64,000 nt of DNA from Lunularia cruciata (taxonomy: Eukaryota; Streptophyta; Marchantiopsida; Lunulariales; Lunulariaceae), in contig OX419757.1 of NCBI GenBank assembly GCA_948567375.1, positions 56,045,665 to 56,109,664 on the forward strand. Reading direction: 5' to 3'. Both the position numbers and the translations under genes were made by a program. Positions 1 through 55,576 of the stretch are shown here, in pieces. Below the pieces are notes generated by a model. It had not been told where the DNA came from and searched no databases. It saw only the letters and a list, made by a program, of their open reading frames with translations. Numbering within the stretch: position 1 is the stretch's first letter; each line of letters begins with the position of its first letter.

Positions 1-1360
1 GCGGAGCAGCACAGGTGGATGCATCTGCAGTAGTGACTAGGAGTGCAGTACGTGCTCTAGAGCCTAGAGGAGCATCAGTGGAGTTGGACCCACAAAGAGG
101 AGAGGTTGGGAGACAGGTTAGACTTCCCCAGTCTTTCACGCTATTTGAGGTATTGTAGACAACATCCATGGTTCCTAGACGTCCCAGTGCAAGTGTGGTA
201 GGTGGTGATGGAGTACATGATGGACTACATGCTAGTCAATCACCTACTACTACACAAACTGAGTCTAGCATGATGTTGGGGGCGGCTCAGCTGATTATGC
301 GGCGTCCTTTGTTTTCAGCCAGTGACATGTTTACATTGGGAGTTGCCCAGCCCTAGTGTTCCGGTTGGTTGCCACATTGTGTGAGTGTAGGGATGGTGCA
401 ATTCCTACTACTAGAGCAGAGGTGGTTGGTAGTGGAGCTGACTTGGTTGAGGAGCATGAGATCCGTTCAACGACCAATGGTTTATGGCAGGCAGCATCGG
501 CTAGACTGGAGGAGTTGCCAGCTAGACCGGCATTTGAGAGAGCACGGTTCACACCTGGTGTTGTCCTATTGGATAACTAGAGTGAGATTTTCCATTTGGT
601 GGGACCTTTAGGGAAGGTCTATACACCACAGAGAGTCTTGTTAGACTCTGGTGCATAGCCCCTTATGTTGGGGAAGGCTGTAGTTGTCGGTCTGGAGTTA
701 CGGAAGACCGATGTGGAGAAGTGTCCATTTCAGATCCAAACATCTCTTGGTGGTGGTTCGACACAGTACATCACACATGGAGAGCTTTTTGTCCAGGTTC
801 AGCCTGGTCATCCAACTGATAGCTCGGTAGTGAGAGCTCAGGCTATTGTGATGATAGCTGAGTCATATGATGTGCTAGTTGGGAGAGCAGTGTTATACCC
901 CATGGGTTTCAACATTGACTATTGGGAGGAGACAACCTCTTATAGACCTGGTTGGCAGTCTTGTGAGGGACGGGTATGTTGCATACCAATACGCTTTAGT
1001 AGTGGTAGTCTTGGCTCACTATAGTCCGGGACAATGGCAGTATCAGTTTTAGCTTTTAGTGGTGCAATTACTTGGCCTGGTGACTTGTTGGAGGGGAACG
1101 CCCATGCAGAGGATACTCCAGTCCTAGAAGAGATCACTTGGCTTTGGAGTACGAGTGGGATTGTTCCATCCACCTTGGATGTTCCATTGTGGAGTTCAGA
1201 GGAGGCATTGCAACATCATGCAGATCAGTTGGTGCAGCAGGCTTGGAGTGGAGCCTTTGTACCATCAGGAGATGAGTGTGAGGATGAGCCTCTAGAGGCA
1301 ATTGCTTTGATACCTCTGGATACCACACTCATTGCTTGGCAATATCCAGTAGAGGGGATA
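1..1360 (+). pseudogene. gag tail, aspartic protease and linker of copy A
   Basis: Broken coding sequence equivalent to E1 37927-39279. The retroviral-type protease active site Asp-Ser-Gly-Ala is at about 643-654, followed by a TAG where E1 has a Gln codon. The protease would process the Gag-Pol polyprotein in the virus-like particle. The stretch from about 1034 is a linker with no recognised fold that leads directly into the methyltransferase motif I. Several stops (for example CAG to TAG) break the frame. Confidence 0.75.
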
Positions 1361-2640
1361 TGCCTATTGGAGTTGTTTGGTGGGATCAGCACCGGACTAG
1401 CTGCGGTGTTACAGGCGGGTATACGAGTACAAAGGTACTTGTATGTAGAGAGAGATGAGACTGCTAGGTGAGTCTCTCTACATCATGTGGTACACTTGGC
1501 CTATCAGTATCTGGAGTTATTACTGATGTCAGCAGTCAGACGTTACCAAAAGGCCCTACTAGGAGACATTTCCTTACTGGGGGCGCATGACCTAGAGAGA
1601 CATGGGCCTATTCACTTGGTGATTTTTGGATGGCCATGTCAAGGACATACAGGTGCTAGTAGAGGATTGGGTCTTCACAATCCTCGTTTGGGTGTGTTTT
1701 GGGAGATGTTACGGATACTACGACATCTCCAGGTTCATCAGTCCGTTTCTCCAGCTTACCTTTTGGAGAACGTTCCTTTAATGGATGAGTCTCGCACCAG
1801 AGTGGTGGCGAGTACACATCAGTTCCATTCTTGGATGGGACCTACTGTATTGTTAGATGCAGCCAGAGTGGGATCACGGGCTCATCGTCTTTGTCTTTGG
1901 TGGACGAACCTCTTACCCAGAGAGGTTCTACAGCGTGCTTATGATGGGATTCACCGACTAGACCACATTCTTGTTGATGATATCTTGGATGTTGGGCGTT
2001 AGTCTCAGACAGTGGTAGTGGCTGATAGGTCACCTATGGCAGTGGTGAACCTAGTTGGACAGCCTAGAGCCGCATTTCCCATACTCATGAGTTTCCCAGG
2101 CTCTCATGCTTTTCGAGAGGGAGGACCTGGACTTGTTTGGGACTCACAATTATAGTAGTTGGTGGAGCCTAATGCTGATGAGAGAGAGTGGGCGATGGGT
2201 TTTTGCACTGGTATTACTACTGTTCCAACAGTGTCAGAGGTATCCAAGCGTTAGGTGTTAGGTCAGGCTATGGACCTGAATTGTTTGACCTGGATTGTGA
2301 GCCTTGGCTTGGCAGAGCAACGTAAGATGCGCTTGATAGGCATCACCACTCGGACACTTGTGAGCCCTGTGCCTATCGAGACAATTCAGGCACATGTTGG
2401 GGGCAATGGACCGATGGACATGGTATTCTTGGGACACATCCAGTAGCTACTAGGGAGAGTGGTCTACTTGGAGTCCATCTAGGTGAGCGTGGGCTACTTG
2501 AATTACACCCTTGGTCCACATGGGATGCAGCTAGAGGACGTGTGGAGCTTGCAGCCAGAGTGGAGGCAGTTTTTCACATAGAGGTTGGGACCTCTAGTGG
2601 TCGGGAGCATGATACTATTGCTCCCAAGGGCCCAGTGTAG
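1361..2640 (+). pseudogene. C5 cytosine DNA methyltransferase domain, copy A
   Basis: Methyltransferase motifs occur in the canonical order. Motif I (LELFGGISTGL) lies near 1366-1400 and motif II (YVERDE) near 1441-1460. The motif IV catalytic loop Gly-Trp-Pro-Cys-Gln-Gly-His is intact, with Pro-Cys-Gln at 1634-1642. Motif VI Glu-Asn-Val is at 1766-1774. A motif VIII-like Arg-Ala-His-Arg and Trp-Trp-Thr-Asn segment, a motif IX-like Met-Gly-Phe and a motif X-like Leu-Gly-Gln-Ala follow. C5 methyltransferases transfer a methyl group from S-adenosylmethionine to cytosine through the motif IV Cys. The frame has stops at about 2000 and beyond. The region ends in TAG TAG TTA, where E1 has TAG CAG CCA. 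Confidence 0.85.
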
Positions 2641-4047
2641 TAGTTAGTCAGTATGTCTTCCACTCCTACTACAGTTATAGAGGATACTTGGGAGCCAGAT
2701 CTTGGACCCAAGCTTACAAGAGAGGAAAGATGGAGGGTTTGGAGGTTCTTGAGGAGTCACACGAGTTGTTTTGCCTTCAGTATGAAGGATTTGGGTGCTC
2801 TAAAGGGACCTAGTATACAGATTGAGCTGACTAGCGACACACTAGTTTTCTGACGTCCTTATCAATATAGTGATATGGAGAGGACATTGATTCAGAGCCG
2901 GAGTAGTGACCTTTTTGAGGCTGGTTTGGTGGAGATTACCGTCCTATCAACCGATAGACCAGGGCTGATTGGTATGCCATGCCTACACCGGAGGAGATTT
3001 TTTATGCGATTGGGCATGCAAAGGTCTTCAGTACTTTGGATCTTCGAGCGGGATATCATCAGTTGCCGATCAAGGAGGAGGATAAGTCCAAGACAACATT
3101 TTGGGCTATTGATCCTCACGGCAAGGATGTGTTATATCAGTGGAGGTTCTTACCATTTGGGTTAAAGAACGCTCTTGCTGAGTTCCAAAGGGTCATGGAT
3201 AGGATCCTAGCTGGATTGGATTTTGCTCGGTGCTATATTGATGACATTTTGGTTTATAGCACTACTGTGGAGGAGCATGAGCGACAGTTGTTGGAGGTGT
3301 TTGAGAGGTTGAGATCTCATGGACTAAAATTACATCCTGGGAAGTGTAGGTTCTTTCACAAGCAGGTTGAGTATTTGGGTCACACTATCTACCTTGGAGG
3401 ACTTGGTGTTCAGCAGACCAAGGTGGAGGCTATTGCACGTATTCCTTGGCCTACGGATGTGAGCAGAGTGCAAGCATTCCTTGGGTTGGCAAACTTCTAT
3501 CGCTGCTATGTTAGAGGATTTAGTGCCATTGCCAAAGGCCTTGACGAAGCTGACCAAGCTTACACAGGAGTGGTGTTGGGGAGATGAGCAAGAGAGAGCT
3601 TTTGTAGAGCTCAAGGAGAGGTTGACATCTGCTCCTATTTTGAGGAGACCGATCAGGGGACGACCATTTGAGGTTCATACTGATTGGAGTATGTTGGGGC
3701 TTGGAGCAGTGCTCACCCAACATGATGATGAGGGGAAGGAGTTTGTGGTGGCCTATGCTTGTCGCTCCAACAATTCAGCGGAGGAGAAGTATAGTTTGTA
3801 AAAGGAGAGTGCTTGGCAGCAATTTGGGCAGTAGCACATTTCCGATGTTACCTATTTGGTAACCCCTTCACTCTTATCACTGATCATCAGCCGTTGAAGT
3901 GGTTGATGGAGTCCAACAAGCTTTCAAGGAAGCTTGCACGATGGGCTCTGATTTTACAGGAGTATGATTTCACGGTTGTTCACAGACTTGGAGTGGTGAA
4001 TCGTGATGCAGATGGATTGAGTAGAAACCCATGTCCCAGCCAGTAGG
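2641..4047 (+). pseudogene. Reverse transcriptase and RNase H, copy A
   Basis: The RT catalytic Tyr-Ile-Asp-Asp is readable near 3234-3245. RNase H residues are also visible: the HTDWS segment, TDHQPLKWL, and NRDADGLSR near the end. About 90 bp of the RT N-terminal part is missing at about 2938 compared with E1 40861-40944, where two copies of TGGAGATT flank the lost piece. The region ends at a TAG (4045-4047) that E1 shares at 42055. Confidence 0.85.
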
Positions 4048-5435
4048 ATCAGACCGGAGCACGTTAGCATGGTGAGATAGATGAGGAGATGGTGCCAGGT
4101 TGGCATGCATTGGCCTTTCTGTGTATATTTGCACAGGCTTTAGTGATATCTCTCTCAGTGCATACAAGAGGAGTTATTGAGGTTACAGATCCAGAGAGTG
4201 AAGATATTGGTCCAGTTCAGCAAGACATTCATGATGATGTCTTAGTGATGGACTATCTTTGCACAGGTGTTGTGGGTGGCACAATTGGGGCCAAGGAGAG
4301 AGACCATGTTCTTCAGCGAGCCAGACGGTTCAGATTGGAGGGTAGACATCTTTTGCATGTATGGGAGGATGGTAGAGTGCAAGTAGTACCACTTCCATCA
4401 CAAAGACCACAGTTGGTCCGTCATGCTCATGAGGAGCTAGGACATTTTGGAGTAAAGCATACATATAGCTTACTCCAGAGTCATTATTGGTGGCGCGGTA
4501 TGCAGACCAAGATACAATAGTTTGTTGCCAGATGTGTGGTTTGTGACCGAGTTAGAGCATCATTCAATGCTCTTACGCCACAATTACACCCCTTACCTAT
4601 CATGGAGATTGGGTTACCATTGGAGTTTGGACTTTGCCGGACCTTTACTGCTGACTGTGAGACATCATCGGTATGTTTTGGTGATGGTGGAGCACTTCTC
4701 CAAGTGGATTGAGTTGATGGCACTTCCTGACAAGTCTAGTGAAGGGACAACTTACTTGTTTTTGGATCCAGGTCTTGTAAGACAAGGCTTTGATTGATCA
4801 TTGTACTACATCCCGAGATCACCGTAAGGTAGATGGCTTAGCAGACAGTGGTTCAGACAGTGAAGAGAGGATTGCAAAAGTATGCTTTGCAGAGAGGCCA
4901 CTTGGGAGATTGGGATCTCCAATTACCTTGGTTGGCCATGGGCTATCGGTTCAGCCGGCAAGCCTCCTTAGCATCCTTCTCTCCATACTTTCTACTCTAT
5001 GGACAAGATCCAGATTTACCTGTAGCCATTCGTCGAGATGCTACTGTAGTTTTGGATTTGGATGACCCCGATGTATGGATGAGCGCATGTTCTCAGCGGG
5101 TAGAGAGTGATGCCAATGGCCTTTGAGAACTTGGCGATTGCTCAGCATAGAGATACTTTAAGCTATGCTACCATTCGAGGAGGTGGTTATAGACCCTCCA
5201 TCCGTTGATTTCATCTAGGTGACTATATATATCTATAGTAGACAACACCGACAAGACTTGATGTTTCTACAAGCTACACTATCTTGAGAGTGCGCGAGGT
5301 TTTGCCATCTGGAGTCCTTGTGTTAGAAGGACGTGATGGTGTTGTTTGGAAGGATCATGTGCGCAATTGTGCGCCATGCCACCTCCCAAACATTGATGGT
5401 ACTATGTACCCAAGCTTGGCACTTGTACGTGCAGG
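4048..5435 (+). pseudogene. Integrase, copy A, without its PHD tail
   Basis: An HHCC zinc-binding segment (HAHEELGHFG, then a CVVC pair) is followed by the catalytic core with its first Asp. About 75 bp around the second catalytic Asp is missing at about 4770 relative to E1 42777-42850, so the core is inactive. The frame is cut at 5435 by insertion of the B1 chromovirus; the next codons, the PHD finger, are at 12037. Confidence 0.8.
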
Positions 5436-19958: not shown

Positions 19959-20260
19959 ACTCACTTCTCTAATGTTGAGCCTTTGAGTTTCTAGCTATGG
20001 TGAACAGAGGCCGGCGAGTGTCACCTGGATTCTCTATGCTTAAGTGGTTGTGGCTTGATTGTAATTAGTGCCCAATTGTTGGCAGTTTATAGAGTGACAG
20101 ATCAAGTACTGATCTGAGTTGAGTTGAGTTGAGAGTGGTAAGCAATCTGATTAATTGTGGCACTTTAGAGTCTATGTATGACTTATGTGTGAGTTGTGCT
20201 TCTATAGTGTATGATGTTGACAGCAATGTATGTTGTGTAGCAATGTATGTACGCACGACA
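19959..20260 (+). repeat. Partial LTR of copy A (DNMT element family)
   Basis: Matches E1 44208-44507: the right part of the LTR body (HB), the TTGAG pentamer array, then the 105-bp T segment (20156-20260) ending ACGCACGACA. Its left part is missing, replaced by D1. Its right edge abuts an old B-like LTR, so copy A had inserted there. Confidence 0.85.
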
Positions 20261-34287: not shown

Positions 34288-34563
34288 GCAGTTTAGTCAA
34301 ATCCCGTAGATCAAGGTACATGATGCTCCAAGATGGAAGAAGTACTATACAATCCTAACACACACTTTGAGCAAGAGTTCCCAAAACCGTCTGCAAGCAA
34401 GAAATCCCATAGTGATTTGTGGGCAAAGGTCCCATAATGGCACGTAGAGATGTAGTAATCCCATAGTGATCCTAGCTTGATTGTGAGATAGAATTAGACA
34501 GTAAAACCAAGAATTGACTCGCAAGTTTGTCTCCTTGTTTATCATCCTCCAAGTAAGAATGTG
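34288..34563. other. No gene recognised
   Basis: Short unclassified stretch between the end of copia similarity and the left LTR of E1. Its last five bases, ATGTG (34559-34563), recur at the right edge of E1. Confidence 0.5.
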
Positions 34564-35011
34564 TGTCACGCCATTTGTAGTTCCGCATCTAGATGCTCGG
34601 ACACTGGAGTTCCAGTGATGGTAGTTAGAGTTATTCTAGCTGTTTCTCAGGGACTACTTTCCGACGGTTAGATTTCGTGTTCGGGGTACTGACTTCACGG
34701 TGGGGCCCACCGTCACTTTGCACCGTTTGCACCGTCGAGTGTGCCATCAGCGGGACCGTTAGGGTTTCAGGGCTAGCTCGAGTCCAGGGGGTATAGTTTC
34801 GAAGTGAGCTCCAGAGAGCTCACTTCTCTGATGTTGAGCCTTCGAGTTCCTGGCTATGGTGGACAGAGGCCGGCGAGCGTCACCTGGATTCTCTATGCTT
34901 GAGTGGGTGTGGCTTGACTGTAATCAGTGCCCAGTTGTTGGCAGTTTATAGAGTGACAGATCAAGTACTGATCTGAGTTGAGTTGAGTTGAATTGTTAAG
35001 CAATTTGATTA
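34564..35011 (+). repeat. 5' LTR body (HB) of E1
   Basis: 448 bp, TGTCACGCC ... CAATTTGATTA, equal in length to 43954-44401. It lacks the 105-bp T segment that follows HB at the 3' end. The next bases (CATCAGAGAAG) weakly resemble an initiator-Met PBS. Inside are a perfect 10-bp hairpin (34801-34810 with 34817-34826) and a TTGAG pentamer array near 34975. Confidence 0.85.
34674..34769 (+). promoter_or_regulatory. Cluster of six ACCGT/ACGGT motifs in the LTR of E1
   Basis: ACGGT at 34674 and 34707; ACCGT at 34719, 34732, 34741 and 34765. The 34707-34723 pair forms a perfect palindrome around a single G (ACGGTGGG-G-CCCACCGT). The cluster is repeated in the 3' LTR at about 44064-44159. Two sites contain AACGG on the minus strand, the core recognised by plant three-repeat MYB proteins. 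A regulatory role is inference. Confidence 0.35.
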
Positions 35012-36380
35012 CATCAGAGAAGTGAAGTCAGGGGGAAATCGGGTGCAGGAACGTTGAGTGTTGGTGGTATCTCCAAGCTCGGTGGATCGTGGTAGCTCGA
35101 TTCAGGTTCTGTGTTTCCCTAGTGTGCAGAAGCTCGTGTAGTTGGTGCAAATTTGGCAGTTAGGCGGACGGTGTGCGGAAGCGCTGGCCAAATTTCGAGC
35201 AAAGAAGGAGCAATTTTCGAGCAGTGTTGTGATTTTGAGCTCAGGAGGTGAAGGCAGGACCAATTTGCTGCGAGTTGGGCTCGGAAAGTGAAATTGAAGG
35301 TGGAGTTGGAAAGCTCTTCTCATGAAATTGTGATTTGGAAAAACCCGTTTTGTCAATTTGGCTCGAGTGGAAAGTTAGCGGGGGATTTGGCGGACATCCA
35401 TCTTTAGGGTTTACGTCAGATTTTACGTCAGATTTTTGGGCCAGAATTGGAGGAGTTTCGCTGTTTGGCCAGATTTGGAGAAGTTTCGCTAGTTTGGAGG
35501 AGTTTCATAGATTTGGAGAAGTTTCGCCAATTTTGGAGGAGGTTCGAAGTGGCAACAAGAAAGGCCTCATTTGGCTGAATTTCGGCGTTTCGAGGCTTCG
35601 AGGCATAGGGCTGTGGGCTATGAGAGGCTACGAAGGCCTAGAAGGGCCAGAAGGGCCAGCAAGCCAGCTTGCTGGCGTGAGGCTAGCTAGTTTAGTGTAG
35701 ATCTTGGTCATTGGTTGGCAAAATCTGCCTTTCTTGCTAGATTGTGCGCAACAGGGTTTGACCCCTAGATCTCTTGTTCCTAGACTGGTGCCCTAGCCAA
35801 CTGGTCCACCCTCACTTGTTGTCATAGTGACTGTGCCACTGTTATCTATACACATGTAGCTTTGGCTAGGAGAGGCAGTTTGATCCCATTCTTGGTGATC
35901 CTGGTAGCTTAGGACTTAGATACGAACTACTCTTATGTCAAATGCCAAATGGTGGCAGAGTCAGTCCCGTGTTGTGTTATGAGATGGAGGGTTTTCGTTT
36001 AGATTTCTTGTGATTGGATCCCCTCCATTCTCTGCTTCCTGTTTGTGCACCACGTTTGTGTAAGGTGCCTTGACTTTTGAGCGTTGGTGCTCTGGTGTGC
36101 TCTCGGTGGTGAGGCTGGAGTGATGACCAGTCAGACTACCTTTGTTTCTCTCCGGTGAGGCAGGAAGTGATGACCTGCAGACCGTGAGAGTGCGTGTTAT
36201 GATGGCAAGTTACAGGTTGCCCTTCCCCTAGTGTAGTTATCTCGGTTAGAGTTACATTAGTTGGTGGTGTTTTAGTTGGTGTTGGCACGCGGTGGTGTTG
36301 GCACTTGGTGGGGCACTTGCGGTTGCGACTTGCTGTTGCAGTTGGTGGTTCGGGTTTGTTGGTGTGGTTACTTTGTCACG
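35012..36380 (+). other. Untranslated leader of E1
   Basis: No convincing gene; the frame at 35335-35700 has low-complexity repeats (GGAGAAGTTTCG) and no homologue here. On the minus strand, 35741-35813 resembles a tRNA-derived SINE head, with an A-box-like TGGCTAGGGCACC and a B-box-like GGGTCAAACCC about 30 nt apart. The mini-ORFs found in families B and D are absent. Confidence 0.5.
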
Positions 36381-37283
36381 ATGGAGTTCTTTGGAGATTC
36401 CAGAGGAGTTAGCCCTGCAGTACGCAGTGGGTTTACTCGGAGTGGTGCTCGGTATCAGCCTGTATCTCAGGTCCCAGTGAGGGAGGAGATTGACTCTGAG
36501 TTGGAGTTCGACACAGGAGCTGATTCAGTTGAGAGTGCACTTGGTGTGTCCGCACCGTTGTTGTGGGACATGGACGAGATTTATGGGGCCTCCAAAGGCC
36601 CTAGGCGTTACTCTGGTACAAAGGGTACCATTGAGTTGGATGACTTCATCCAGGAGTTCGATAGTTGGTGTGATCTGCAGCAGATGCGGAACCCGACTTT
36701 GTTTACACCCTTCATGGCATGGAAGGGGTTGTTTCAGCACTTGGAGGGTCCACCGATGGACGACTACCATGAGTTCAGGAGAGCTCATTTGGAGGAGATT
36801 GAGTTATGGAGACAGTATTGGTCTCCACACTATGTCTCCATCACTTCAAGTTTGGTGGCCAGGAGTAGGTCGGCTGTACCTACGAGTTCTAGCTCGAGTA
36901 GTGTTGGTGGAGCTAGTGGAGGTGCACTAGCTGGAGATAGTGCTACTACGAGTGGAGGTACCGCTGCAGGAGGTGGTGTGGTACCGGGGTTTAACCCCAT
37001 GGTTGAGTTCTTCCTATGTTTGAGGCAGAACTACCAGGGAGTGCGGACTGACAAGCTGAGGAGCTTGCAGGAGTTCCAGCGGAAGGCTGGAGAGAGCCTA
37101 CGCGAGGCATACACTTGCATGAGGCGGCTGATCAGTTTCACTCAGGGAGTTACTGAGGCCCAGGCAGTCCAGTTTTGGTTTGGGATACTGGACATGGAGT
37201 TGCGACGTAGAGTTCGTGATGCTACGTTGTTGCATCACGAACTCTACTTCGCCCACTTTGGCAGTAGTCTTTGGTTTGGCTGA
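36381..37283 (+). CDS. Gag of E1 (capsid part)
   Basis: From the ATG at 36381: a disordered N-terminus, then a retrotransposon gag domain (RYSGTKGTIELDDFIQEFD, FMAWKGLFQHLEG). A Ser/Gly-rich linker separates it from a helical second half (FNPMVEFFLCLRQNY, LQEFQRKAGESLREAYTCMRRL). It builds the virus-like particle. The frame ends at 37283; the expected continuation (TLAVVFGLAEHIELN, then the zinc knuckles) is in the next frame from about 37250. An inverted repeat sits exactly at this junction. Either a mutation or a programmed shift is possible; copy A does not cover the site. Confidence 0.8.
   Translation: MEFFGDSRGVSPAVRSGFTRSGARYQPVSQVPVREEIDSELEFDTGADSVESALGVSAPLLWDMDEIYGASKGPRRYSGTKGTIELDDFIQEFDSWCDLQQMRNPTLFTPFMAWKGLFQHLEGPPMDDYHEFRRAHLEEIELWRQYWSPHYVSITSSLVARSRSAVPTSSSSSSVGGASGGALAGDSATTSGGTAAGGGVVPGFNPMVEFFLCLRQNYQGVRTDKLRSLQEFQRKAGESLREAYTCMRRLISFTQGVTEAQAVQFWFGILDMELRRRVRDATLLHHELYFAHFGSSLWFG
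37202..37252. repeat. Perfect inverted repeat at the gag frame junction
   Basis: Arms 37207-37222 and 37232-37247 are perfect 16-mers around a 9-nt loop. After one mismatch they extend by four further pairs (37202-37205 with 37249-37252). This would form a very stable RNA hairpin exactly where the reading frame must change. Confidence 0.85.
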
Positions 37284-39279
37284 GCATATTGAGCTCAACA
37301 TGGTGGAGGAGAGAGTGGTGACATCTGGATTTGGTAGAGAGACCTCATCCACGGTTGTGACTTCTTCTAGAGTGCAGCAGAGTGCACCACGCCCAGTTGG
37401 TTTTCAAGGACAGGGTGGACAGCCTAGATCCTATGGAGCGAGTGGAGGGCCTAGTGGAGTTAGACCCTTACCCTCATTTTCGGGTCAGCATCAGCCAGTG
37501 AGTGGTGGTGTTGCTTGTTGGACTTGTGGTGGACCTCACCATAGGAGAGAGTGTACTCAGGGCAGCGGACCTGATACCTCTGGTGCATCACAGCCAGCAC
37601 AGAGGCAGTGTGAGCACTGCCATAGATTTGGTCATACTAGTGACCGGTGTTTTGACCTACACCCGGAGTTACGGAGTGGTAGGGCTGCTATGGCAGGTAG
37701 TAGAGGAGCTCCAGTTCATGGAGGACGAGGTGGTAGAGGTGGTGGTAGAGGATCTACACCTAGTAGGGGTGCAGTACCTGCCCTTACTTCTGACACAGCT
37801 ATGGCTACTCGGATTGAGAAGTTGGAGCAGAGATTGGCTAGTATGGCTATTGCTCATAGGAGATCAGATTCGGGTGCTGAGGCTTCCACCTCATATGCTG
37901 GTGATAGAGATGCTTTGGACTTCATGTGCGGAGCAGCACAGGTGGATGCATTTGTAGCAGTGACTAGGAGTGCAGTACGTGCTCCAGAGCCTAGAGGAGC
38001 ATCAGTGGAGTTGGACCCACAGAGAGGAGAGGTTGGGAGACAGGTCAGACTTCCCCAGTCTTTCACGCTATCTGAGGCATTGCAGACGACATCCATGGTT
38101 CCTAGACGTCCCAGTGTAGGTGTGGTAGGTGGTGATGGAGTACCTGATGGAATACCTGCTAGTCAGCCACCTGCTACTACACAGACTGAGTCTAGCATGA
38201 TGTTGGGGGCGGCTCAGCTGATTATGCGGCATCCTTTATTTTCAGCCAGTGACATGTTTACATTGGGAGTGGACCCAGCCCCAGTGTTCCGGTTGGCTGC
38301 CACGTTGTGTGAGATTAGGGATGGTGCAGTTCCTACTACTAGAGCAGAGGTGGTTGGTAGTGGAGCTGACTTGTTTGAGGAGCATGGGATCCGTTCAGCG
38401 ACCAGTTGTTTATGGCAGGCAGCAGCGGCTAGACTGGAGGAGTTGCCAGCTAGACCGGCCTTTGAGAGAGCGCGGTTTACACCTGGTGTTGTCCTATTGG
38501 ATAACCAGAGGGGGATTTTTTGTTTGGTGGGACCTTCAGGGAAGGTCTATACACCACAGAGAGTCTTGTTAGACTCTGGTGCGCAGCCCCTTATGTTGGG
38601 GAAGGCTGCAGTTGTTGGTCTGGAGTTACGGAAGACCGATGTGGAGAGGTGTCAGATCCAGACATCTCTTGGTGGTGGTTCGACACAGTACATCACACGT
38701 GGAGAGCTTGTTGTCCAGGTTCAGCCTGGTCATCCGACTGATAGCTCGGTGGTGAGAGCTCAGGCTATTGCGACGATAGCTGAGTCCTATGATGTGCTAG
38801 TTGGGGGAGCAGTGTTATACCCTATGGGTTTCAGTATTGACTATTGGGAGGAGACAGCCTCTTATAGACCTGGTTGGCAGTCTGGTGAGGGACGGGTATG
38901 TCGCCTACCAGTACGCTTCAGTAGTGGCAGTCTTGGCTCACTACAGTCCGGGACCATGGCAGCATCAGTTTTGGCTTTCAGCGGTGCAGTTACTTGGCCT
39001 GGTGACTTGTTGGAGGGGAACGCCCATGCAGAGGATACTCCAGTACCAAAGGAGATCACTCGGCTATGGAGTACGAGTGGGATTGTTCCATCCACCTTGG
39101 ATGTTCCATTGTGGAGTTCAGAGGAGGCATTGCAGCAACATGCAGATCAGTTGGTGCAGCAGGCTTGGAGTGGAGCCTTCGTACCATCAGGGGATGAGTG
39201 TGAGGATGAGCCTCCAGAGGCGATTGCTTTGACACCTCTGGATAACACACTCATTGCTTGGCAGTATCCAATAGAGGGG
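37250..39279 (+). CDS. Zinc knuckles, protease and linker of E1
   Basis: Open in one frame. The first knuckle CWTCGGPHHRREC begins at 37516 and the second, CEHCHRFGHTSDRC, near 37609; both are C-x2-C ... H-x4-C. A Gly/Arg-rich stretch follows. The aspartic protease has its Asp-Ser-Gly-Ala at 38572-38583 and a YDVLVGGAVLYPMGF segment near 38788, in the position of the usual I-L-G-x-D/P-W box. A linker of about 100 residues (ALTPLDNTLIAWQY) leads directly into DNMT motif I without a stop. The methyltransferase would thus be made as part of the Gag-Pol polyprotein. Confidence 0.85.
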
Positions 39280-40563
39280 ATATGTCTATTAGAGTTGTTT
39301 GGTGGGATCAGCACCGGACTAGCTGCGGTGTTACAGGCGGGTATCCGAGTACAGAGGTACTTGTATGTAGAGAGAGATGAGACTGCTAGGCGAGTCTCTC
39401 TACATCATGTGGCACACTTGGCCTATCGGTATCCGGAGTTATTACCGATGTCAGCAGTCAGAGGTTACCAGAAGGCCTTACCAGGAGACATTTCCTTATT
39501 GGGGGCGCATGACCTAGAGAGACATGGGCCCATTCACTTGGTGATTTCTGGATGGCCATGTTAGGGACATACACGTGCGGGCCGCGGTTTGGGTCTTCAG
39601 GATCCTCGTTCTGGTGTGTTTTAGGAGATGTTACGGATACTACGACATCTCCAGGTTCATCAGTCTGTTTCTCCAGCTTACCTTTTGGAGAACGTTCCAT
39701 TGATGGGTGATTCTCACACTAGAGTGGTGGCAAGTACACATCAGGTCCATTCTTGGATGGGACCTGCTGTATTGTTAGATGCAGCCAGAGTGGGATCACG
39801 GGCTCATCGTCTTTGTCTTTGGTGGACGAACCTTTTACCCAGAGAGGTTCTACAGCGTAGTTATGATGGGATTCAGCGACTAGACCACATTCTTGTTGAT
39901 GATATCTTGGATGCTGGACGTCAGTCTCAGACAGTGGTAGTGGCTGATAGGTCACCCATGGCAGTGGTGAACCTAGTTGGACAGCCTAGAGCTGCATTTC
40001 CCACACTCATGAGTTTCCCAGGCTCTCATGCTTTTCGAGAGGGAGGACCTGGACTTGTTTGGGACTCACAGTTACAGCAGTTGGTGGAACCCAATGCTGA
40101 TGAGAGAGAGCGGGCGATGGGTTTTCGCACCGGTATTACCGCTATTCCAGCAGTGTCAGAGGCATCCAGGCATCAGGTGTTAGGTCAGGCTATGGACCTG
40201 AACTGTTTGACCTGGATTGTGAGCCTTGGTTTGGCAGAGCAGCGTAGGATGCGCTTGATAGGCATCACCACTCGGACACTTGTGAGCCCTGTGCCTATCG
40301 AGACGATTCAGGCACATGCTGGGGGCGATGGACCGAGTGGACATGGTATTCTTGGGACACATCCAGTAGCTACTAGGGAGAGTGGTCTACTTGGAGTCCA
40401 TCCAGGTGAGTGTGGGCTACTTGGATTACACCCTTGGTCCACATGGGATGCAGCCAGAGGACGTATGGAGCTTGCAGCCAGAGTGGAGGGAGTTTTTCAC
40501 ACAGAGGTTGGGACCTCTAGTGGTCGGGAGCATGACACCATTGCTCCCAAGGGCCCAGTGTAG
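39280..40563 (+). pseudogene. C5 cytosine DNA methyltransferase domain of E1
   Basis: About 312 residues of catalytic domain (39283-40218), canonical motif order, so not DRM-type. Motif I (CLLELFGGISTGLAAVL) binds S-adenosylmethionine; motif II Glu is at 39370. In motif IV, Trp-Pro-Cys has the nucleophile Cys at 39559-39561, and the following Gln codon is TAG here (CAA in copy A). Motif VI Glu-Asn-Val is at 39688-39696. Motif VIII (RVGSRAHRLCLWWTN, 39787-39831) recalls the AHRxRxxWxN of DNMT3/DRM enzymes. Motif IX Met-Gly-Phe is at 40117-40125 and motif X (VLGQAMDLN) at 40177-40203. A second stop at 39622 is a TGG-to-TAG change. The target-recognition part between VIII and IX is short. Confidence 0.9.
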
Positions 40564-40569
40564 CAGCCA
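40561..40569 (+). promoter_or_regulatory. Candidate stop-codon readthrough signal UAG-CAG-CCA
   Basis: The DNMT frame stops at TAG and RT follows in the same frame. The six bases after the stop, CAGCCA, fit the CAR-YYA consensus of tobamovirus-type leaky UAG codons. Copy A has TAG TAG TTA here, which a single C-to-T change would produce from TAG CAG TTA, also a CAR-YYA match. Translation control is inference from the motif. Confidence 0.5.
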
Positions 40570-42057
40570 GTCAGTACGTCTTCCACTCCTACTACAGTTA
40601 CAGAGGATACTTGGGAGCCAGATCTTGGACCCAAGCTTACTGGAGAGGAAAGACGGAGGGTTTGGAGGTTCTTGAGGAGTCACACAAGTTGTTTTGCCTT
40701 CAGTATGAAGGATTTGGGTGCTCTGAAGGGACCTGGTATACGGATTGAGCTGACTAGCGACACACCTATTTTCCGACGTCCTTATCGATATAGTGAGATG
40801 GAGAGGACATTGATTCAGAGCCGGAGTAGTGACCTTTTTGAGGCTGGTTTGGTGGAGATTTCACATGGAGAGTATGCATCAGCGATAGTGATGCCAGCCA
40901 AGAAGGATATGCATGGCAACTATACAGATAGGCGGATGTGTGGAGATTACCGTCCTATCAACCGACAGACCAGGGCTGATCGGTATGCCATGCCTACACC
41001 GGAGGAGATTTTTGATGCGATTGGGCATGCAAAGGTCTTCAGTACTTTGGATCTTCGAGCGGGATATCATCAGTTGCCGATCAGGGAGGAGGATAAGTCC
41101 AAGACAGCATTTTGGGCTATTGATCCTCACGGCAAGGATGTGTTATATCAGTGGAGGTTCTTACCATTTGGGTTGAAGAATGCTCCTGCTGAGTTCCAGA
41201 GGGTCATGGATAGGATCCTAGCTGGACTGGATTTTGCTCGGTGCTATATTGATGACATTTTGGTGTATAGCACTACTGTGGAGGAGCATGAGTGACAGTT
41301 GTTGGAGGTGTTTGAGAGGTTGAGATCTCATGGACTCAAATTACATCCTGGGAAGTGTAGGTTCTTCCATGAGCAGGTTGAGTATTTGGGTCACACTATC
41401 TACCCCGGAGGACTTGGTGTTCAGCAGACCAAGGTGGAGGCTATTGCACGTATTCCTCGACCTACGAATGTGAGCAGAGTGCGAGCATTCCTTGGGTTGG
41501 CGAACTTCTATCGCCGCTATGTTAGAGGATTTAGTGCCATTGCCAAGGCCTTGACGAAGCTGACCAAGCTTACACAAGAGTGGTGTTGGGGAGATGAGCA
41601 GGAGAGAGCTTTTGTAGAGCTCAAGGAGAGGTTGACATCTGCTCCTATTTTGAGGAGACCGATCAGGGGACGACCATTTCAGGTTCACACTGATTGGAGT
41701 ATGTTGGGGCTTGGAGCGGTGCTCACCCAACATGATGATGAGGAGAAGGAGTTTGTGGTGGCCTATGCTAGTTGCTCCAACAATTCAGCGGAGGCGAAGT
41801 ATAGTTCATATGAGGGAGAGTGCTTGGCAGCAGTTTGGGCAGTAGCACATTTCCGATGTTACCTATTTGGTTACCCCTTCACTCTCATCACTGATCATCA
41901 GCCGCTGAAGTGGTTGATGGAGTCCGACAAGCTTTCAGGGAAGCTTGCACGATGGGCTCTGATTTTACAGGAGTATGATTTCACGGTTGTTCACAGACCT
42001 GGAGTGGTGAACCGTGATGCAGATGGGTTGAGTAGAAACCCATGTCCCAGCCAGTAG
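40564..42057 (+). pseudogene. Reverse transcriptase and RNase H of E1
   Basis: In frame with the DNMT. The RT fingers (IVMPAKKD, CGDYRPINRQT) are followed by the palm (LDLRAGYHQLPI) with Tyr-Ile-Asp-Asp at 41245-41256. RNase H has HTDWSMLGLG, a GECLAAVWA Glu, TDHQPLKWL and NRDADGLSR, so all four acidic residues are present. A single TGA at 41293-41295 replaces a CGA (present in copy A). It ends at TAG 42055-42057, also present in copy A. RT copies the genomic RNA into cDNA. Confidence 0.92.
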
Positions 42058-43530
42058 GATCAGACCGGAGCACGTTGGCATGGTGAGACAGATGAGGAGA
42101 TGGTGCCAAGTTGGCATGCATCAGCCTTTCTGTGTATATTTGCAGAGACATTGGTGGTATCTCTCTCAGCGCATACAGGAGGAGTTATTGAGGTCACAGA
42201 TCCAGAGAGTGAAGATATTGGTACAGTTCAGCGAGACATTCATGATGATGTCTTAGTGATGGACTATCTTCACACTGGTGTTGTGGGTGGCACAGTTGGG
42301 GCCAAGGAGAGAGACCGTGTTCTTCAGCGAGCCAGACGGTTCAGATTGGAGGGTAGACACCTTTTGCGTGTATGGGAGGATGGTAGAGTGCGAGTAGTAC
42401 CACTTCCATCACAGAGACCACAGTTGGTCCGTCATGCTCATGAGGAGCTAGGACATTTTGGAGTAAAGCGTACATATAGCTTACTCCAGAGTCATTATTG
42501 GTGGCGCGGTATGCAGACCGAGGTACAGCAATTTGTTGCCAGATGTGTGGTTTGTGACCGAGTTAGAGCATCATTCAATGCTCCTACGCCACAGTTACAC
42601 CCATTACCTATCATGGGATTGGGTTACCGTTGGAGTTTGGACTTCACCGGACCTTTACCGCTGACTGTGAGACATCATCGGTATGTTTTGGTGATGGTGG
42701 AGCACTTCTCCAAGTGGATTGAGTTGGTGGCACTTCCTGACAAGTCTAGTGAAGGGACAGCTTACTCGTTCCTGGATCGAGTTCTTAGTCATTTTGGTGC
42801 ACCAGCTGAGGTTTTGACTGATCAGGGTATAGAGTTCTTGGGAGAGTTTCAGGTCTTGTGTGACAAGGCTTTGATTGATCATCGTACTACATCCCGAGAT
42901 CACCCTGAGGCAGATGGCTTAGCAGAGAGAGTGGTTCAGACGGTGAAGAGAGGATTGCGAAAGTATGGTTTGCAGAGAGGCCACTTGGGAGATTGGGATC
43001 TCCAGTTACCTTGGTTGGCCATGGGCTATCGGTTCAGCCGGCAAGCCTCCTTAGCATCCTTCTCTCCATACTTTCTACTCTATGGACGAGATCCAGATTT
43101 ACCTGCAGCCATTCGTCGAGATGCTACTGTAGTTTTGGACTTGGATGACCCTGATGTATGGATGAGCGCATGTTCTCAACGGGCAGAGATCTTTCGGAGA
43201 GTGATGCCGATGGCCTTCGAGAACTTGGCGATTGCTCAGCATAGAGATACTTTACGCTATGCTACCATTCGAGGAGGAGGTTATAGACCCTCGATCCGTC
43301 GATTTCATCCAGGCGACTATGTATATCTACAGCAGACAGCACCGACGACACTTGATGTTTCTACAGGCCGCACTATCTTGAGAGTGCACGAGGTTTTGCC
43401 ATCTGGAGTCCTTGTGTTAGAAGGACGTGATGGTGTTGTTTGGAAGGATCATGTGCGCAATTGTGCGCCATGCCACCTCCCAAACATTGATGGTACTATG
43501 GACCCAAGCTTGGCACTTGTACGTGCAGGC
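42058..43530 (+). CDS. Integrase of E1
   Basis: Same frame as RT after the TAG at 42055; the first ATG is 42100. The zinc-binding domain has HAHEELGHFG and CVVC near 42430-42560. The catalytic triad is Asp 42640 (SLDFTGPL), Asp 42820 (LTDQG) and Glu 42925 (AERVV), with 34 residues between the last two. The C-terminal domain (FHPGDYVYL, VLEGRDGVVWKDHVRN) continues without a stop into the PHD finger. Open throughout, so this part is intact in E1. Confidence 0.92.
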
Positions 43531-43677
43531 TTGAGGTGTATGTTATGTGGCTCTTCTGGTGGAGCTGCTACTATGTTAGTGTGTGATAGCTGTTCGAGAG
43601 GATGGCATATGGCATGTATGACTCCTCCCCTCACGGTGGTTCCTCAGGGACAGTGGTTATGTCCTAGATGTACTTGA
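43531..43677 (+). CDS. C-terminal PHD finger fused to integrase of E1
   Basis: All eight zinc ligands of a Cys4-His-Cys3 PHD finger are present: Cys 43537, 43546, 43582, 43591; His 43606; Cys 43615, 43660, 43669. Spacing is C-x2-C-x11-C-x2-C-x4-H-x2-C-x14-C-x2-C. The segments LVCDSCSRGWHMAC, TPPL and QWLCPRC are textbook PHD, including the Trp two residues before the seventh ligand. PHD fingers commonly read the histone H3 tail. Here it takes the place of the chromodomain, so targeting of integration to chromatin is a reasonable inference. Stop TGA at 43675. Confidence 0.93.
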   Translation: MRCMLCGSSGGAATMLVCDSCSRGWHMACMTPPLTVVPQGQWLCPRCT

Positions 43678-43846
43678 CCTATAGCTAGTTCATTCTTTAT
43701 ATGGTATAGATTGCAGACATGCGACTAACGATGGGGCTCCATAGCACCTGGCCTCCTGATCTTTGCCCATTAGAGGGTATACCATATACTTAGAGTAGAT
43801 GGCTATCTGGAGTTAGAGGGACCTAACCACCAGCTAGGGGGGCGAT
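43678..43846 (+). other. 3' untranslated region and polypurine tract of E1
   Basis: Non-coding. The last bases before the T segment, GCTAGGGGGGCGA (43833-43845), form the only polypurine-like tract before the 3' LTR. It abuts T (TGTGGCAC at 43847), not the TGTCACG start of HB. Confidence 0.65.
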
Positions 43847-43953
43847 TGTGGCACTTTAGAGTCTATGTATGACTTATGTGTGAGTTGTGCTTTTATAGTG
43901 TATGATGTTGACAACGATGTATGTTGTGTAGCGATGTATATACGCACGACAGC
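43847..43953 (+). repeat. T segment, first copy
   Basis: 105 bp, TGTGGCACTTTAG ... CGCACGACA, plus GC. It is repeated with about one difference at 44403-44507 and, in copy A, at 20156-20260. It lies between the polypurine tract and the HB body, so by replication logic it should be the start of U3. Confidence 0.8.
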
Positions 43954-44507
43954 TGTCACGCCATTTGTAGTTCCGCATCTAGATGCTCGGACACTGGAGT
44001 TCCAGTGATGGTAGTTAGAGTTATTCTAGCTATTTCTCAGGGACTACTTTCCGACGGTTAGATTTCGTGTTCGGGGTACTGACTTCACGGTGGGGCCCAC
44101 CGTCACTTTGCACCGTTTGCACCGTCGAGTGTGCCGTCAGCGGGACCGTTAGGGTTTTAGGGCTAGCTCGAGTCCAGGGGGTATAGTTTCGAAGTGAGCT
44201 CCAGAGAGCTCACTTCTCTGATGTTGAGCCTTCGAGTTCCTGGCTATGGTGGACAGAGGCCGGCGAGCGTCACCTGGATTCTCTATGCTTGAGTGGGTGT
44301 GGCTTGACTGTAATCAGTGCCCAGTTGTTGGCAGTTTATAGAGTGACAGATCAAGTACTGATCTGAGTTGAGTTGAGTTGAATTGTTAAGCAATCTGATT
44401 ATTGTGGCACTTTAGAGTCTATGTATGACTTATGTGTGAGTTGTGCTTTTATAGTGTATGATGTTGACAGCGATGTATGTTGTGTAGCGATGTATATACG
44501 CACGACA
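43954..44507 (+). repeat. 3' LTR of E1 (HB body plus second T segment)
   Basis: HB 43954-44401 and T 44403-44507. Read as one unit it runs TGTCACG ... CGACA (554 bp). A TTGAG pentamer array lies near 44365-44385 and the 10-bp hairpin at 44191-44216. The right edge is followed by TGTG/ATGTG, matching the left flank. Confidence 0.82.
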
Positions 44508-44511
44508 TGTG

Positions 44512-45463: not shown

Positions 45464-46215
45464 TGTACTACTCCAAGGACAAGAGAAGAGAGAAACATAG
45501 ATTTCACACTCAATCATCCGATGCCCCAAAGGAGCACCTTCTCTTTATTATATAGACAAAGAGGATCTCCTCCAAGGAAGCTCCACCATAGGATTAGGTA
45601 CACAGATAGGTGACATGTCAGCAAGCTCCACCATTGGATTACTTACTTGGATGTGTGACATGTTGGTCCTGGTCCTATCTGGTTGGTCAAACAAGCTTTG
45701 ACTGGAGGGAATCTTTTAGGGAATATTTTAGGGAATCTTCCTGTAGGAATCTCAAAATCACGTGGGTGAGGTACCGTTGGAAATCTCTCAACAAGACAAA
45801 GCAAGGGGGAGGGAAGGCCGGCCTTTCCCATGTTGGGTGGAGGAGAATCTGTACATTTTCAAGGCCTTATTCATCCATTTAGGCCTTTGAAATTGCCTTC
45901 AAAGATTTCAAGCATATTTAGGTTCCTACTCTATTAGTAGGAGTCCCCTTTTGATGATACATCTTTCTGATCTGTTTAGTCCATCATGTATAAAATCCAT
46001 CCAGATATTAACAAACCAATTCTCACCTTTAAATCATATGTCTAGCTATTGGTTTTGAGGTTTTCAAGTCTATTTTGGTTTCTGCACTATTAGTAGAAGT
46101 ACTCTTTTGGTGATACTTCTATCTGATCTATTTTGACCATCATGTATAACATCATTCCAGATGTTACCAAACCAAATTTCACATCTAGATCATATGGCTA
46201 GCTCTTGGTATTACA
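45464..46215 (-). repeat. Solo LTR of family B
   Basis: 752 bp matching the B1 LTRs end to end, including both internal tandem units. It has a flanking duplication with one mismatch (ATGGG at 45459-45463, ATGTG at 46216-46220). No internal element sequence is attached, so it arose by LTR-LTR recombination. Confidence 0.9.
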
Positions 46216-49251: not shown

Positions 49252-51880
49252 GTACCTCAAGGTAAAGTATGGGAGATAAATTGTTAGTTATTTTATTTTA
49301 TGTGGGTGTTCTAATTGGATATCACCTTGAAGTATAACATGATATCACATTGATACACCTTGAAGAATAACCTTTGCTAGTATAAACCTAGTCTTCTTGA
49401 GGGTCCTTAGTTCAATTCCATGTGACCACCGTATGGAAAAAAAGTTTGTGCCTACTTTTATGCTTAAATTTACATGCCAATTTACTACCATTCCATGATG
49501 AGTAGACTAGATCAAATTGGTGGATCTATTCTACCAACGTAAAAGTCAGGACTTCCCTTTGCAACTTGGGAAAAGCTACAAATACTTCCCTCTACATATC
49601 CCGCATCAAAATTGGTCATGGGAGGAATGAAAACCAAGATGACCATTCCTTGTCTTCTTGGAAGAAGGCTTCTTCTCTTTTGTCCTTGTTAACCACTTTG
49701 GGGGCCTAGAAGGTCATCAATAATAGGAGAGTTATTATTGCAATCAAAGGAATTGCCAACTTCAACCATTCTTGGAAGTCTTAAGTCTTGTGCAAGAATT
49801 GGTTTAGTTATTCTGGTTGAAGGAGAGGTTGCTTGCATAGTGATTGTAAGGTAGTCACCTCCTAGGCACAAGTCTCCAATCCTTGGATCCTTTTCTTTTG
49901 AGGAGGAATCATCACCTTTCTAAAGGGCTCTCTGAACTCCAAGGCGTATGTGGCACATATGAAGTATGGGAATTCAGGTGCTATTGGACTTATTCCTCTT
50001 GCCAATTGCTTAACAAGTTTTTCTACATTGGGAGCTAGCTAATACTCCCCTTCCCTTGTAGAAGATCATGCAAGATCCATCAACCTAGATCATTGTAGTA
50101 TCAGTCCCGTAGAAGCTTCATCCCCATCTACATGCGGGCTTAACTTGCTCTTCCCTTGACTAAGATATCCAGAATGGTTTCTTCCCTACAGGAACTTTGA
50201 GGTTCTTATTCCATGATTGGCTCCAACAGATCTACCATACTGGTTGTCTCTATGGTGCTTCCCATATTCTAGTATTTGATAATTACCAATTCTTCTATTG
50301 CTAGTTCCTCTTGTCCAATAGTCCTTTTGTATATGTGACTATTATTGCATGTAATTTTGGGTGATCTCCTCCCTAGGAAACCTATCTCCTATAGCTCTTG
50401 TCCTTATAGAACTACCCTTAGTTTTTCTCTTTGTGCTCCTCAATGACTTTAGGGTCCCCAATTGGGTGAGCTAAGACTCAACCCTTCTTACCCCCAATAA
50501 TATATCCGTGAGTAGGAGGTCTTGAAGAGTTTGAGGAGGGTGAACTCCCACTTGTAGGACAACCTCCAAATTGTGTCTTGGAGTGACTTCCTCCGCTCTC
50601 CTTGTGTGCCTTCTTGGTGATCCGCCCCTTGTGAGTCCTTATGGCTTGTCTCCTCCTTGTTATTGTTGAGCTTATCTTCTACTTTGGATTCCTCTTCCCC
50701 TAAGGAAGCTTTTAAATTATGATGACTAATGAACTAGAGTAATTGGCTAACTCTCAAATCTAATTTTTGATTCTATATCATGAGGTCATCCTTGAGCTTT
50801 TGTTGTACTTTGATCTTTGCTTGCTCCTCTCTCCTTTTCTCCTTGTAATAGAAAAGGTCCTTTTGGTAACTTACCTTCTCTTTTTCTCATTTATAAAATG
50901 CTAGTTCTTCTTTTAGAACTTCCCTTTTTGTCTCTCAATTGATTTTCTCCTTTTCCAAAGTTGTAACCTTTGCTTCTAATAAAGACTATGACAATTTTGA
51001 TTCCTCTACCTCCTTGAAAGAAGTGTCATTATTGTGGAAAATTCCCATATCTTCTTTATAGGTAACTTGAAGTCTTCCTTTACATGGGATGACTGGTCCT
51101 ATAATATGCAAAGATTTCCCTCTACCTGTTGAGCCTTTAACTTTTTGGCTTCTAGCTATTGATTGATAGTTGCCTTGTGGGTCCAAAGAGTTTGAAGTTA
51201 AGTTAGTGTGTCTCCTAACTATTTTCTAGTAGTGATTTACTACTTTTTCCACTCAATTTCCTTCTCTACCTAAGCAAGCTCTTCATCTTGGGATTTTTGG
51301 GAATTCTTTCATACTATATGCTCATGTTCTTTCCTTAGTGACTGCACTCCATTATGGGCAACATGGAACCTTAGCTCCATTAACATAAAAAATAACACAA
51401 GCCTCCATCTTATGTTAGGTTTGTCTAGCCATTGGTTGTAGTATTCCCTGCTTACCAAGTTATTAGCAAGGATGTCTATTACTTGGGTAGACAATTCCAA
51501 TTGGTTCTATTCTATGGGATTTGTTTCCAGTAGCATTTGGGTCATTGCATTGGCGTTTGGCAAACTTGTCTAGCAAGAAACACCCTCCTTGGGCATAAGG
51601 TGCAAATAGGAGCAGCCTCCATGATAAGAAACAACATTTGCCTTGGGAATACTGGTGGTAGGGAAGCTCCCATGCCAAAAAGTCCGTGTGCTCATTTAAC
51701 AAAAAAATTAGGTTGGTGGCACTACCCTCCTCCTTTTGGGCAGATTTTCTTGCTTCCTTCCTTTGCCCAAGTGGAGTGGTCATGTTTCTACAAGGTTCAT
51801 GTGCATCATCCTCTAGGTTGAGGATATCCAACTTCTCCTATTGCTTGTGCTTCACAAAGCTTCTTGGAGGTTCCTTGATC
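49252..51880. other. No gene recognised
   Basis: Decayed sequence with short minus-strand frames (51463-51831, 50986-51186), one with a Lys/Gln/Glu-rich segment (LEKEKIN, EVLKEELAFY near 50950). It resembles the style of an old gag region but gives no nameable motif. Confidence 0.45.
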
Positions 51881-52217
51881 TATAACACACATTTGTGCAT
51901 GTGTGTGCTATTGTGATATTTAGCTTGGTATTGCAAATACTTGAGAGATATTATTTATAAAGAGATAAAGGATAGTTCTACATTAGTCATGATTAGCTAA
52001 ATTTAGTCATAGCTAAGATAGTGGAGACCTTACTTTAGAGGTAGAAAAGATGAGCACCCCTACTTTGGATTCTTGTGTGTTGACTTGATATTATTCCTAG
52101 GTGTTTAGCTCTGAGGAAAGAGTTGAGAACTCTTGCGCCCGCAAACCTTTTTGTTTGGATTCTTCTATAGTCCAAAGATAGCCCATGTGAAGGAATCCTT
52201 GACTTAGTTGTTGGGTT
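51881..52217 (+). repeat. Left part of a family D LTR
   Basis: Starts TATAACACACATTTGTGC (first TG changed) and follows the D LTR to CTTAGTTGTTGGGTT. There it is cut by the oppositely oriented D3 LTR. Confidence 0.85.
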
Positions 52218-54001: not shown

Positions 54002-54042
54002 TTTTTGGTTCCGTTGCCGGGACCTCTCTAGAAGGCAAGATA

Positions 54043-54195
54043 ATGTTCCGTGTTCAATTCTACATTAGACAGAAGGAGGCTATGAGAGCTCACTTGGAGA
54101 GAACATTAGGAGAGGAGAGGGCTGAACTTAAGATAGAGAACCAAGATCCATTTTTATACCCTTTAGTTCATTATGATGTATTTGAAGTGATTTAA
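54043..54195 (+). CDS. Mini-ORF 1 of D2
   Basis: 50 residues from ATG, nearly identical to D1 mini-ORF 1 up to YDVFEVI. A TTG-to-TAA-type change then ends it six residues early. It supports the ATG at 12879 as the real start in D1, since only the sequence from there on is coding-like in both. Confidence 0.55.
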   Translation: MFRVQFYIRQKEAMRAHLERTLGEERAELKIENQDPFLYPLVHYDVFEVI

Positions 54196-55336: not shown

Positions 55337-55338
55337 TG

Positions 55339-55503: not shown

Positions 55504-55576
55504 TAATAGAGTGAGAGAAAAGTAAAGAAAAAAAGAAAAAAAAATTGAGAGAAAAGAAAGATAGTGAGGGGTTAAG

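Follow-up and report, generated by a model that had tools for sequence, protein, structure and literature searches.

A DNMT3-type cytosine methyltransferase in a split-repeat Ty3/gypsy retrotransposon family of the liverwort Lunularia cruciata

The window analysed here, 64,000 nucleotides of the genome of Lunularia cruciata (contig OX419757.1), contains a Ty3/gypsy retrotransposon, E1, in which a cytosine-5 DNA methyltransferase (DNMT) domain of the DNMT3 type lies between the protease-like region and the reverse transcriptase (RT). E1 belongs to a family in which the DNMT has conserved catalytic residues and a pattern of variation pointing to purifying selection, with a conserved stop-codon motif after it; the elements have split direct repeats and 4-bp target duplications, and the DNMTs of the sampled set form one clade. 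Plant DNA methylation is directed mainly at retrotransposons, yet this family, with at least 94 closely similar copies in one genome, itself encodes a writer of the mark.

Structure and integration of E1

The element and two further copies in the window have the following features.

34560-34563 and 44508-44511: target duplication TGTG, 4 bp, in the flanks of E1
34564..44507, +: Ty3/gypsy element E1, split direct repeats A-ORF-B-A-B (ORF, open reading frame; blastn self comparison and flanks)
34564..35011, +: repeat A1, 448 bp, four differences from A2; E1 starts with TGTCACG
36276..37283, +: Gag-side ORF (ORF listing)
37180..39564, +: frame 1 ORF with zinc-knuckle motifs (by eye), the protease-like region and the start of the DNMT
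about 38470-38900, +: protease-like region with DSG, found in relatives by a profile grown from E1
39280..40230, +: DNMT3-type cytosine-5 methyltransferase domain, motifs I-X unpermuted
39562..39564 and 39622-39624, +: in-frame TAG codons within the E1 DNMT
40231..40560, +: tail of the DNMT ORF, 110 codons, stop-free in 30 of 30 copies, with a ratio of nonsynonymous to synonymous polymorphism (pN/pS) of 0.27 (copies chosen by similarity to the DNMT region, tail included)
40561..40569, +: conserved TAG CAG CCA (UAG-CARYYA type I leaky-stop motif) at the boundary of Gag-protease-DNMT and RT
40672..42057, +: RT and RNase H (Pfam); E1 has TGA at 41293 and TAG at 42055
42310..43240, +: DDE integrase and H2C2 zinc-binding domain (PF17921, 4.3e-19; PF00665, 1.3e-13)
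43525..43674, +: PHD finger at the integrase C-terminus (PF00628, 9.5e-11; best PDB match CHD4, 1.9e-17)
43837..43845, +: purine-rich GGGGGGCGA adjoining B1, polypurine-tract-like; off by one base in one of the 8 copies compared, of 30
43845..43951, +: repeat B1, then GC, then A2 (blastn self comparison)
43948-43957: junction of B1 and A2, where E1's two ends and two extra bases form the perfect palindrome GACAGCTGTC; the arrangement resembles a joined-ends junction
43954..44401, +: repeat A2 (blastn self comparison)
44402..44507, +: repeat B2, ending CACGACA at the target duplication
1..5430, +: copy A, a truncated and decayed second copy; DNMT at about 1316-2290 with five stops in the domain
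19960..20260, +: third, partial copy, the 3' part of A followed by B, ending CACGACA like E1 (blastn self comparison)

Pfam places RT, RNase H, H2C2 and the integrase core (rve) in Ty3/gypsy order, and all domains from 37180 to the PHD finger share one frame. The Gag-side ORF matched no family in the Pfam scan and is separated from the frame 1 ORF by a change of reading frame; its counterpart in the Marchantia protein P0171 is continuous, as judged by eye. In the protease region, PF13650/PF13975 matched in 3 of 46 relatives, and the Pfam scan of E1 itself gave no match to them.

The arrangement of the repeats is a property of the family. A1 stands at the 5' end in E1 and in the 8 further copies read there, and B1-A2-B2 at the 3' end in all 30 loci read; in the host genome 661 or more of the 663 bases of the B-A-B block are matched, at 99-100% identity, in each of the 40 places scored (the best of 2997 first-look candidates, a number that is not a copy number). 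Two extra bases (GC in 29 loci, AC in 1) lie between B1 and A2 in all 30 loci, E1 included, while the DNA flanking B2 differs among all 30, and perfect 4-bp target duplications border 9 of the 9 copies with both ends read (E1 and 8 paired copies). This is a true integrated form, with split direct repeats yet a DDE integrase. The split repeats rule out a standard pair of long terminal repeats (LTRs), with two identical full LTRs at the ends. The layout is like that of DIRS/Ngaro elements, which combine A-ORF-B-A-B repeats with a tyrosine recombinase and make no target duplication; membership of E1 in that group is ruled out by its rve integrase and 4-bp duplications. Because its own repeats differ at only 5 of 555 positions, E1 inserted recently.

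How such a form might arise is suggested by two details, the purine tract before B1 and a copy-specific variant common to A1 and A2 in the one informative copy among 8 compared (in E1 itself, A1 and A2 differ by one base near that end). Both fit a model in which reverse transcription yields a B-A LTR and integration starts from a circle opened at the B-A palindrome. No tRNA-like primer site was recognised by eye after A1.

Identity and state of the methyltransferase

An earlier note, made from the sequence alone, had read the key methyltransferase motifs, in canonical order, in the pol frame of a Ty3/gypsy element and had proposed a profile search. The identification holds. Translated in frame with stops as X, 39220-40563 gives a significant match to PF00145 (E = 2.3e-5, 24.4 bits against a cut-off of 22) and matches human DNMT3A with a best E of 8.4e-10, while the tRNA enzyme DNMT2 is a weak match (1.9e-5 and 3.1e-5). 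In the predicted structure of the relative P0004 the nearest fold is that of DNA methyltransferases of the DNMT3 class. Motif I is N-terminal and motif X C-terminal in E1, and DRM2 aligns over its C-terminal part only. This order rules out an origin from DRM, the permuted plant DNMT3 in which motifs VI-X precede I-V, and profile ranking rules out DNMT1, CMT and bacterial enzymes as sources; of the mixed affinities suspected in the note, the DNMT3 likeness alone survives. We regard the identity of the methyltransferase and the architecture of the element as close to certain.

The unpermuted motif order stands as well, and so does the domain start at 39280; the note's end at 40563 does not, since the domain stops at about 40230 and the remainder is the tail. 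In E1 the domain is, moreover, broken by the TAG codons at 39562 and 39622, and the motif VIII arginine, kept in 97 of 99 homologues, is replaced by cysteine in both E1 and copy A. With two stops and the lost arginine, the DNMT copy of E1 is dead. The same arrangement in copy A (P0002) was correctly recognised (PF00145, E = 4.7e-5), though with its five stops.

The catalytic residues are conserved across the 99 element homologues. In 33 of them, including P0119, P0228 and their relatives, glutamate replaces the proline before the catalytic cysteine (GWEC), a residue that is unusual there among C5 methyltransferases.

Copies in the host genome and selection

The DNMT element family is not dead, though the copy in the window is. 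In a protein search of the 565.8-Mb assembly (74 contigs), all 94 places scored, the best of 15435 first-look candidates, span residues 1-447 at 96-98% identity (E1 itself at 100%), which refutes the single chance capture considered in the earlier note. The note had also suggested looking for further open DNMT frames, and the domain is stop-free in 56 of the 94. Since these are the best-scoring places, intact copies are favoured among them and 94 is not a copy number. A reassigned genetic code, which might have explained the stops in the DNMT, is ruled out by the 56 copies without one.

For 30 copies picked by DNMT similarity, E1 included, pN/pS was 0.27 in the DNMT, 0.375 in RT, 0.354 in RT/RNase H and 0.69 in the protease-linker stretch. 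Choosing copies by DNMT similarity biases the first value low, so that we prefer the 0.42 (jackknife standard error 0.09) obtained from 12 copies picked by their terminal repeats, three of which are also among the 30. The 325 DNMT codons are free of insertions and deletions in 12 of these 12 and stop-free in 6. On the basis of the 0.42, the DNMT is under purifying selection about as strong as that on RT.

A conserved stop between methyltransferase and reverse transcriptase

A TAG at 40561 separates DNMT from RT in 30 of 30 copies, E1 included, and is followed by CAGCCA in 29 and by CAGCCT in one; in E1 no in-frame methionine follows until the 48th codon beyond it. Tobamoviruses, benyviruses and pomoviruses use UAG before CARYYA as their type I readthrough signal (PMC5382211, PMC3542737). 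Several of the best-scoring host places have open Gag-protease-DNMT frames of 1424-1448 codons, and the Marchantia protein P0171 likewise ends 84 residues past its DNMT. Because of the conserved TAG, the DNMT is the end of the Gag-protease ORF; it does share the frame of protease and RT, as the earlier note had it, without being placed in pol by that fact. Judging from the motif, RT-RNase H-integrase-PHD is probably made as a readthrough extension. The position in the Gag-protease ORF together with UAG-CAG-CCA points to possible production of the DNMT at Gag level. The conserved leaky stop gives a concrete prediction on DNMT dose.

Relatives, two layouts and origin

Three protein searches, each scoring about 8000 candidates sharing most words, gave 134, 48 and 63 matches (120 of the 134 listed). 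Among the matches listed, named hosts are Marchantia polymorpha, Calypogeia fissa, Riccia sorocarpa and Sphagnum species, and the chlorophytes Haematococcus lacustris, Monoraphidium neglectum and Cymbomonas tetramitiformis; Klebsormidium is named in none of them. Given their presence in liverworts, mosses and green algae, the elements seem to have kept a host silencing tool for a very long time. A scan of viral contigs, limited to 6 peptide patterns from E1, found no viral carriers.

The relatives fall into two layouts, protease-DNMT-RT-RNase H-integrase-PHD (protease-first, the E1 type) and RT-RNase H-DNMT-integrase-PHD (RT-first); the latter is complete in 19 of 231 proteins, and the integrase-PHD occurs in members of both. 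In the host, a search with P0086 scored 60 DNMT places of 25724 first-look candidates and gave no RT-RNase H-DNMT-integrase layout in the 2 places that were read further. The 60 are 37-44% identical to P0086, and those 2, the only ones with an integrase match nearby, are both RT-deleted copies of the E1 family. In these two (L098 and L099; G000 C7:67156800-67158750 and C6:56514050-56515950) an in-frame RT deletion joins DNMT to RNase H and integrase.

Paired trees of DNMT and RT were built from the 39 rows with long enough stretches of both (6 protease-first, including E1, and 33 RT-first), and in each tree one branch separates the layouts (support 99 for DNMT, 100 for RT). The phylogeny with cellular enzymes that the earlier note had called for sets the element DNMTs apart from the DNMT3 and DRM sequences included, which number only two or three and are short, and every row was found by similarity to the DNMT studied here. 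With three cellular outgroups (42 rows) the 39 element DNMTs lie on one side of a branch (100/99) and the layouts are sister clades (97/92 and 92/85); with two (54 rows) the 52 element DNMTs are again apart (100/99), and the RT-first type, which takes in the three named chlorophytes, forms a single clade (100/99) nested (89/81) within a protease-first type that is paraphyletic and to which E1 and all 10 named bryophyte rows used belong. When two DNMT-less gypsy sequences of the window serve as the root of the RT tree, RT-first is again a single clade (100/100), and support for its nesting is modest (94/73).

These trees are most simply read as a single capture of the DNMT followed by a single move. 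They disagree on the direction of the move: two rooted trees nest RT-first in protease-first, with modest support, and the third makes them sister clades. Two or more independent captures of a DNMT3 by related gypsy elements are, in our view, unlikely. They would account for the two positions in the polyprotein, and the few short cellular sequences, the recruitment of relatives by DNMT similarity (by which other captures could be missed) and the sister clades of the 42-row tree, which give no direction of movement, leave room for them; against them stand the separation of 39 and 52 element DNMTs from cellular DNMT3/DRM at 100/99, the integrase-PHD common to members of both layouts and the nesting of RT-first in the two rooted trees.

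In host exons (L001, L004, L002 and L003) we recognise, on our reading, two DNMT3-like genes, a DRM with permuted motifs and a CMT-like gene; the host thus keeps a DNMT3 of its own beside that of the element. In the 42-row tree the single host DNMT3 exon included falls apart from the E1 DNMT.

Tentatively, and with somewhat less than even confidence in the whole, we suggest that a PHD-integrase Ty3 element captured a DNMT3 once, before the chlorophyte/streptophyte split or with later spread between the two groups, and has kept a de novo DNA methyltransferase since. The domain, at first between protease and RT, would have shifted once, to a place between RNase H and integrase, would be delivered in land plants at Gag stoichiometry through the leaky stop, and would travel in split-repeat elements that integrate by the ends of a form like a repeat circle.

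Possible functions of the methyltransferase

On this view a Ty3/gypsy lineage would have taken up a DNMT3-type methyltransferase of cellular origin, probably in a single ancient event, and retained it. In this host the enzyme would be the C-terminal part of the first ORF, Gag-protease-DNMT, and a minority of ribosomes would pass the leaky UAG-CAG-CCA into RT-RNase H-integrase-PHD, so that, if the stop is leaky, the DNMT would probably be made in Gag-like amounts. It would then be packaged in the virus-like particle, freed by the protease and brought to new complementary DNA (cDNA) before or during integration, where it would most likely methylate the element's own DNA, disguising the new copy or marking its chromatin. 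The chain as a whole, from capture through Gag-level DNMT and packaging to self-methylation, seems to us about evenly balanced; that the enzyme methylates its own cDNA is a plausible idea to which we would give slightly less than an even chance.

Several observations count against this proposal. The readthrough step rests on a sequence motif, and stops interrupt the DNMT in 38 of the 94 best places and 6 of the 12 repeat-picked copies. The DNMT of the Klebsormidium element KnitGypsy gave no methylation in yeast, a result its authors regard as inconclusive (PMC5890265). Methylation of CG in new copies over generations should, furthermore, deplete CG, and E1 shows no such sign, though it is young: E1 and copy A have observed/expected CpG ratios of 0.50 and 0.37, the DNMT-less gypsy stretches 0.11 and 0.07, and the window background 0.26 and 0.10. 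C-to-T singletons in the 30 copies picked by DNMT similarity, both strands counted (64 over 153 CG sites, 112 over 340 CHG, 151 over 1250 CHH), are as expected under host methylation in plant contexts and silent on which enzyme methylates.

The DNMT could instead act on host chromatin, marking the integration site together with the integrase PHD or overloading host silencing, which we consider improbable. The PHD finger, present in members of both layouts, is closest in sequence to those of CHD4, KMT2D, KMT2C (MLL3), PHF12, DPF3, KDM5B and PHF21A, several of which read histone H3 unmethylated at lysine 4. DNMT3 itself couples a PHD-like ADD domain to the same catalytic fold, so a reader of the H3 tail joined to a DNMT3-type writer would echo that ADD domain. 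In this family, however, DNMT and PHD lie on opposite sides of the leaky stop. Equally doubtful is a role other than DNA methylation, for instance RNA binding or cytosine-5 methylation of RNA as part of Gag. The placement in the Gag-protease ORF would suit it, and RNA methylation has been raised for the SymbioLINE DNMTs (PMC5890265), but the model is nearest to DNMT3-class DNA methyltransferases, the catalytic residues are conserved and the match to DNMT2 is weak. That the domain is a passenger without function, as the stops in E1, copy A and many other copies might suggest, is very improbable in view of catalytic residues conserved over 99 homologues, a pN/pS of 0.42 in copies not chosen by DNMT, the same split in DNMT and RT trees and retention at two polyprotein positions. 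Methylation of the element's own cDNA or of its fresh insertion remains the role we think likeliest. With the same family present in Marchantia, the benefit of a DNMT to a retrotransposon is testable in a genetic model.

Other features of the window

A second Ty3/gypsy family, lacking a DNMT, lies at about 12141-19879, 51876-58535 and 59721-64000, with copies on both strands and with gag at 14400-16016 and RT-integrase at 16170-18917; its two measured stretches, with CpG ratios of 0.11 and 0.07, show strong CpG depletion. A tandem pair of units of about 156 nt occurs three times on the + strand (5847-6164, 11708-12025, 45892-46209) and once inverted (58711-59080), apparently as part of another repeat. 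Elsewhere in the host genome, there is a single LEAFY-family match (E = 1.9e-35). LEAFY is a streptophyte gene, and with the host exons read as DNMT3-like, DRM and CMT-like genes this match indicates a land plant; a liverwort is suggested by the closest relatives.

Comparison with known systems

DNMT-bearing retrotransposons were described in Symbiodinium and Klebsormidium (de Mendoza et al. 2018, PMC5890265), in agreement with the earlier note, which names dinoflagellates and a charophyte alga, and their occurrence in streptophytes and dinoflagellates was restated in a 2025 paper (PMC12344493). Green algae and charophytes are among the hosts for which a 2019 opinion (PMC6338049) names gypsy and DIRS elements encoding a methylase, so that green-algal members as such are not new; the opinion also describes methylase-encoding transposons as absent from land plants such as tracheophytes, a statement that the liverwort and moss members limit to vascular plants at most. 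The literature searched, which mostly did not reach subscription papers, yielded no description of DNMT-bearing gypsy elements in bryophytes. As far as that literature goes, the new features are the bryophyte members and the single clade joining them to chlorophyte ones; the two DNMT placements, the Gag-side position with its leaky stop and the integrase-PHD; and the occurrence of target duplications around a gypsy element with split repeats.

With cellular DNMT3A/3B the element enzyme shares catalytic fold and motif order; it differs in forming a separate clade, and the Pfam scan of its ORF gave no match resembling ADD or PWWP. SymbioDIRS-Dnmt3, which is of the Dnmt3 type and methylates CG in yeast, and SymbioLINE-Dnmt resemble E1 in carrying a DNMT within the retrotransposon coding region, but they belong to tyrosine recombinase or LINE classes and have dinoflagellate hosts (PMC5890265).

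The closest known system, compared by its description only, is KnitGypsy-Dnmt3 of Klebsormidium nitens. Like E1, it has gypsy pol domains, an unpermuted Dnmt3 under purifying selection and A-ORF-B-A-B repeats, the legend of Fig. 4c giving DIRS-like repeats with gypsy domains (PMC5890265); the words PHD, protease and readthrough are absent from the main text of that paper. The host of E1, in contrast, is a land plant, and whereas the DNMT of KnitGypsy-Dnmt3 is described as part of the Pol polyprotein ORF, that of E1 precedes a conserved leaky stop, across which readthrough would still join it to RT.
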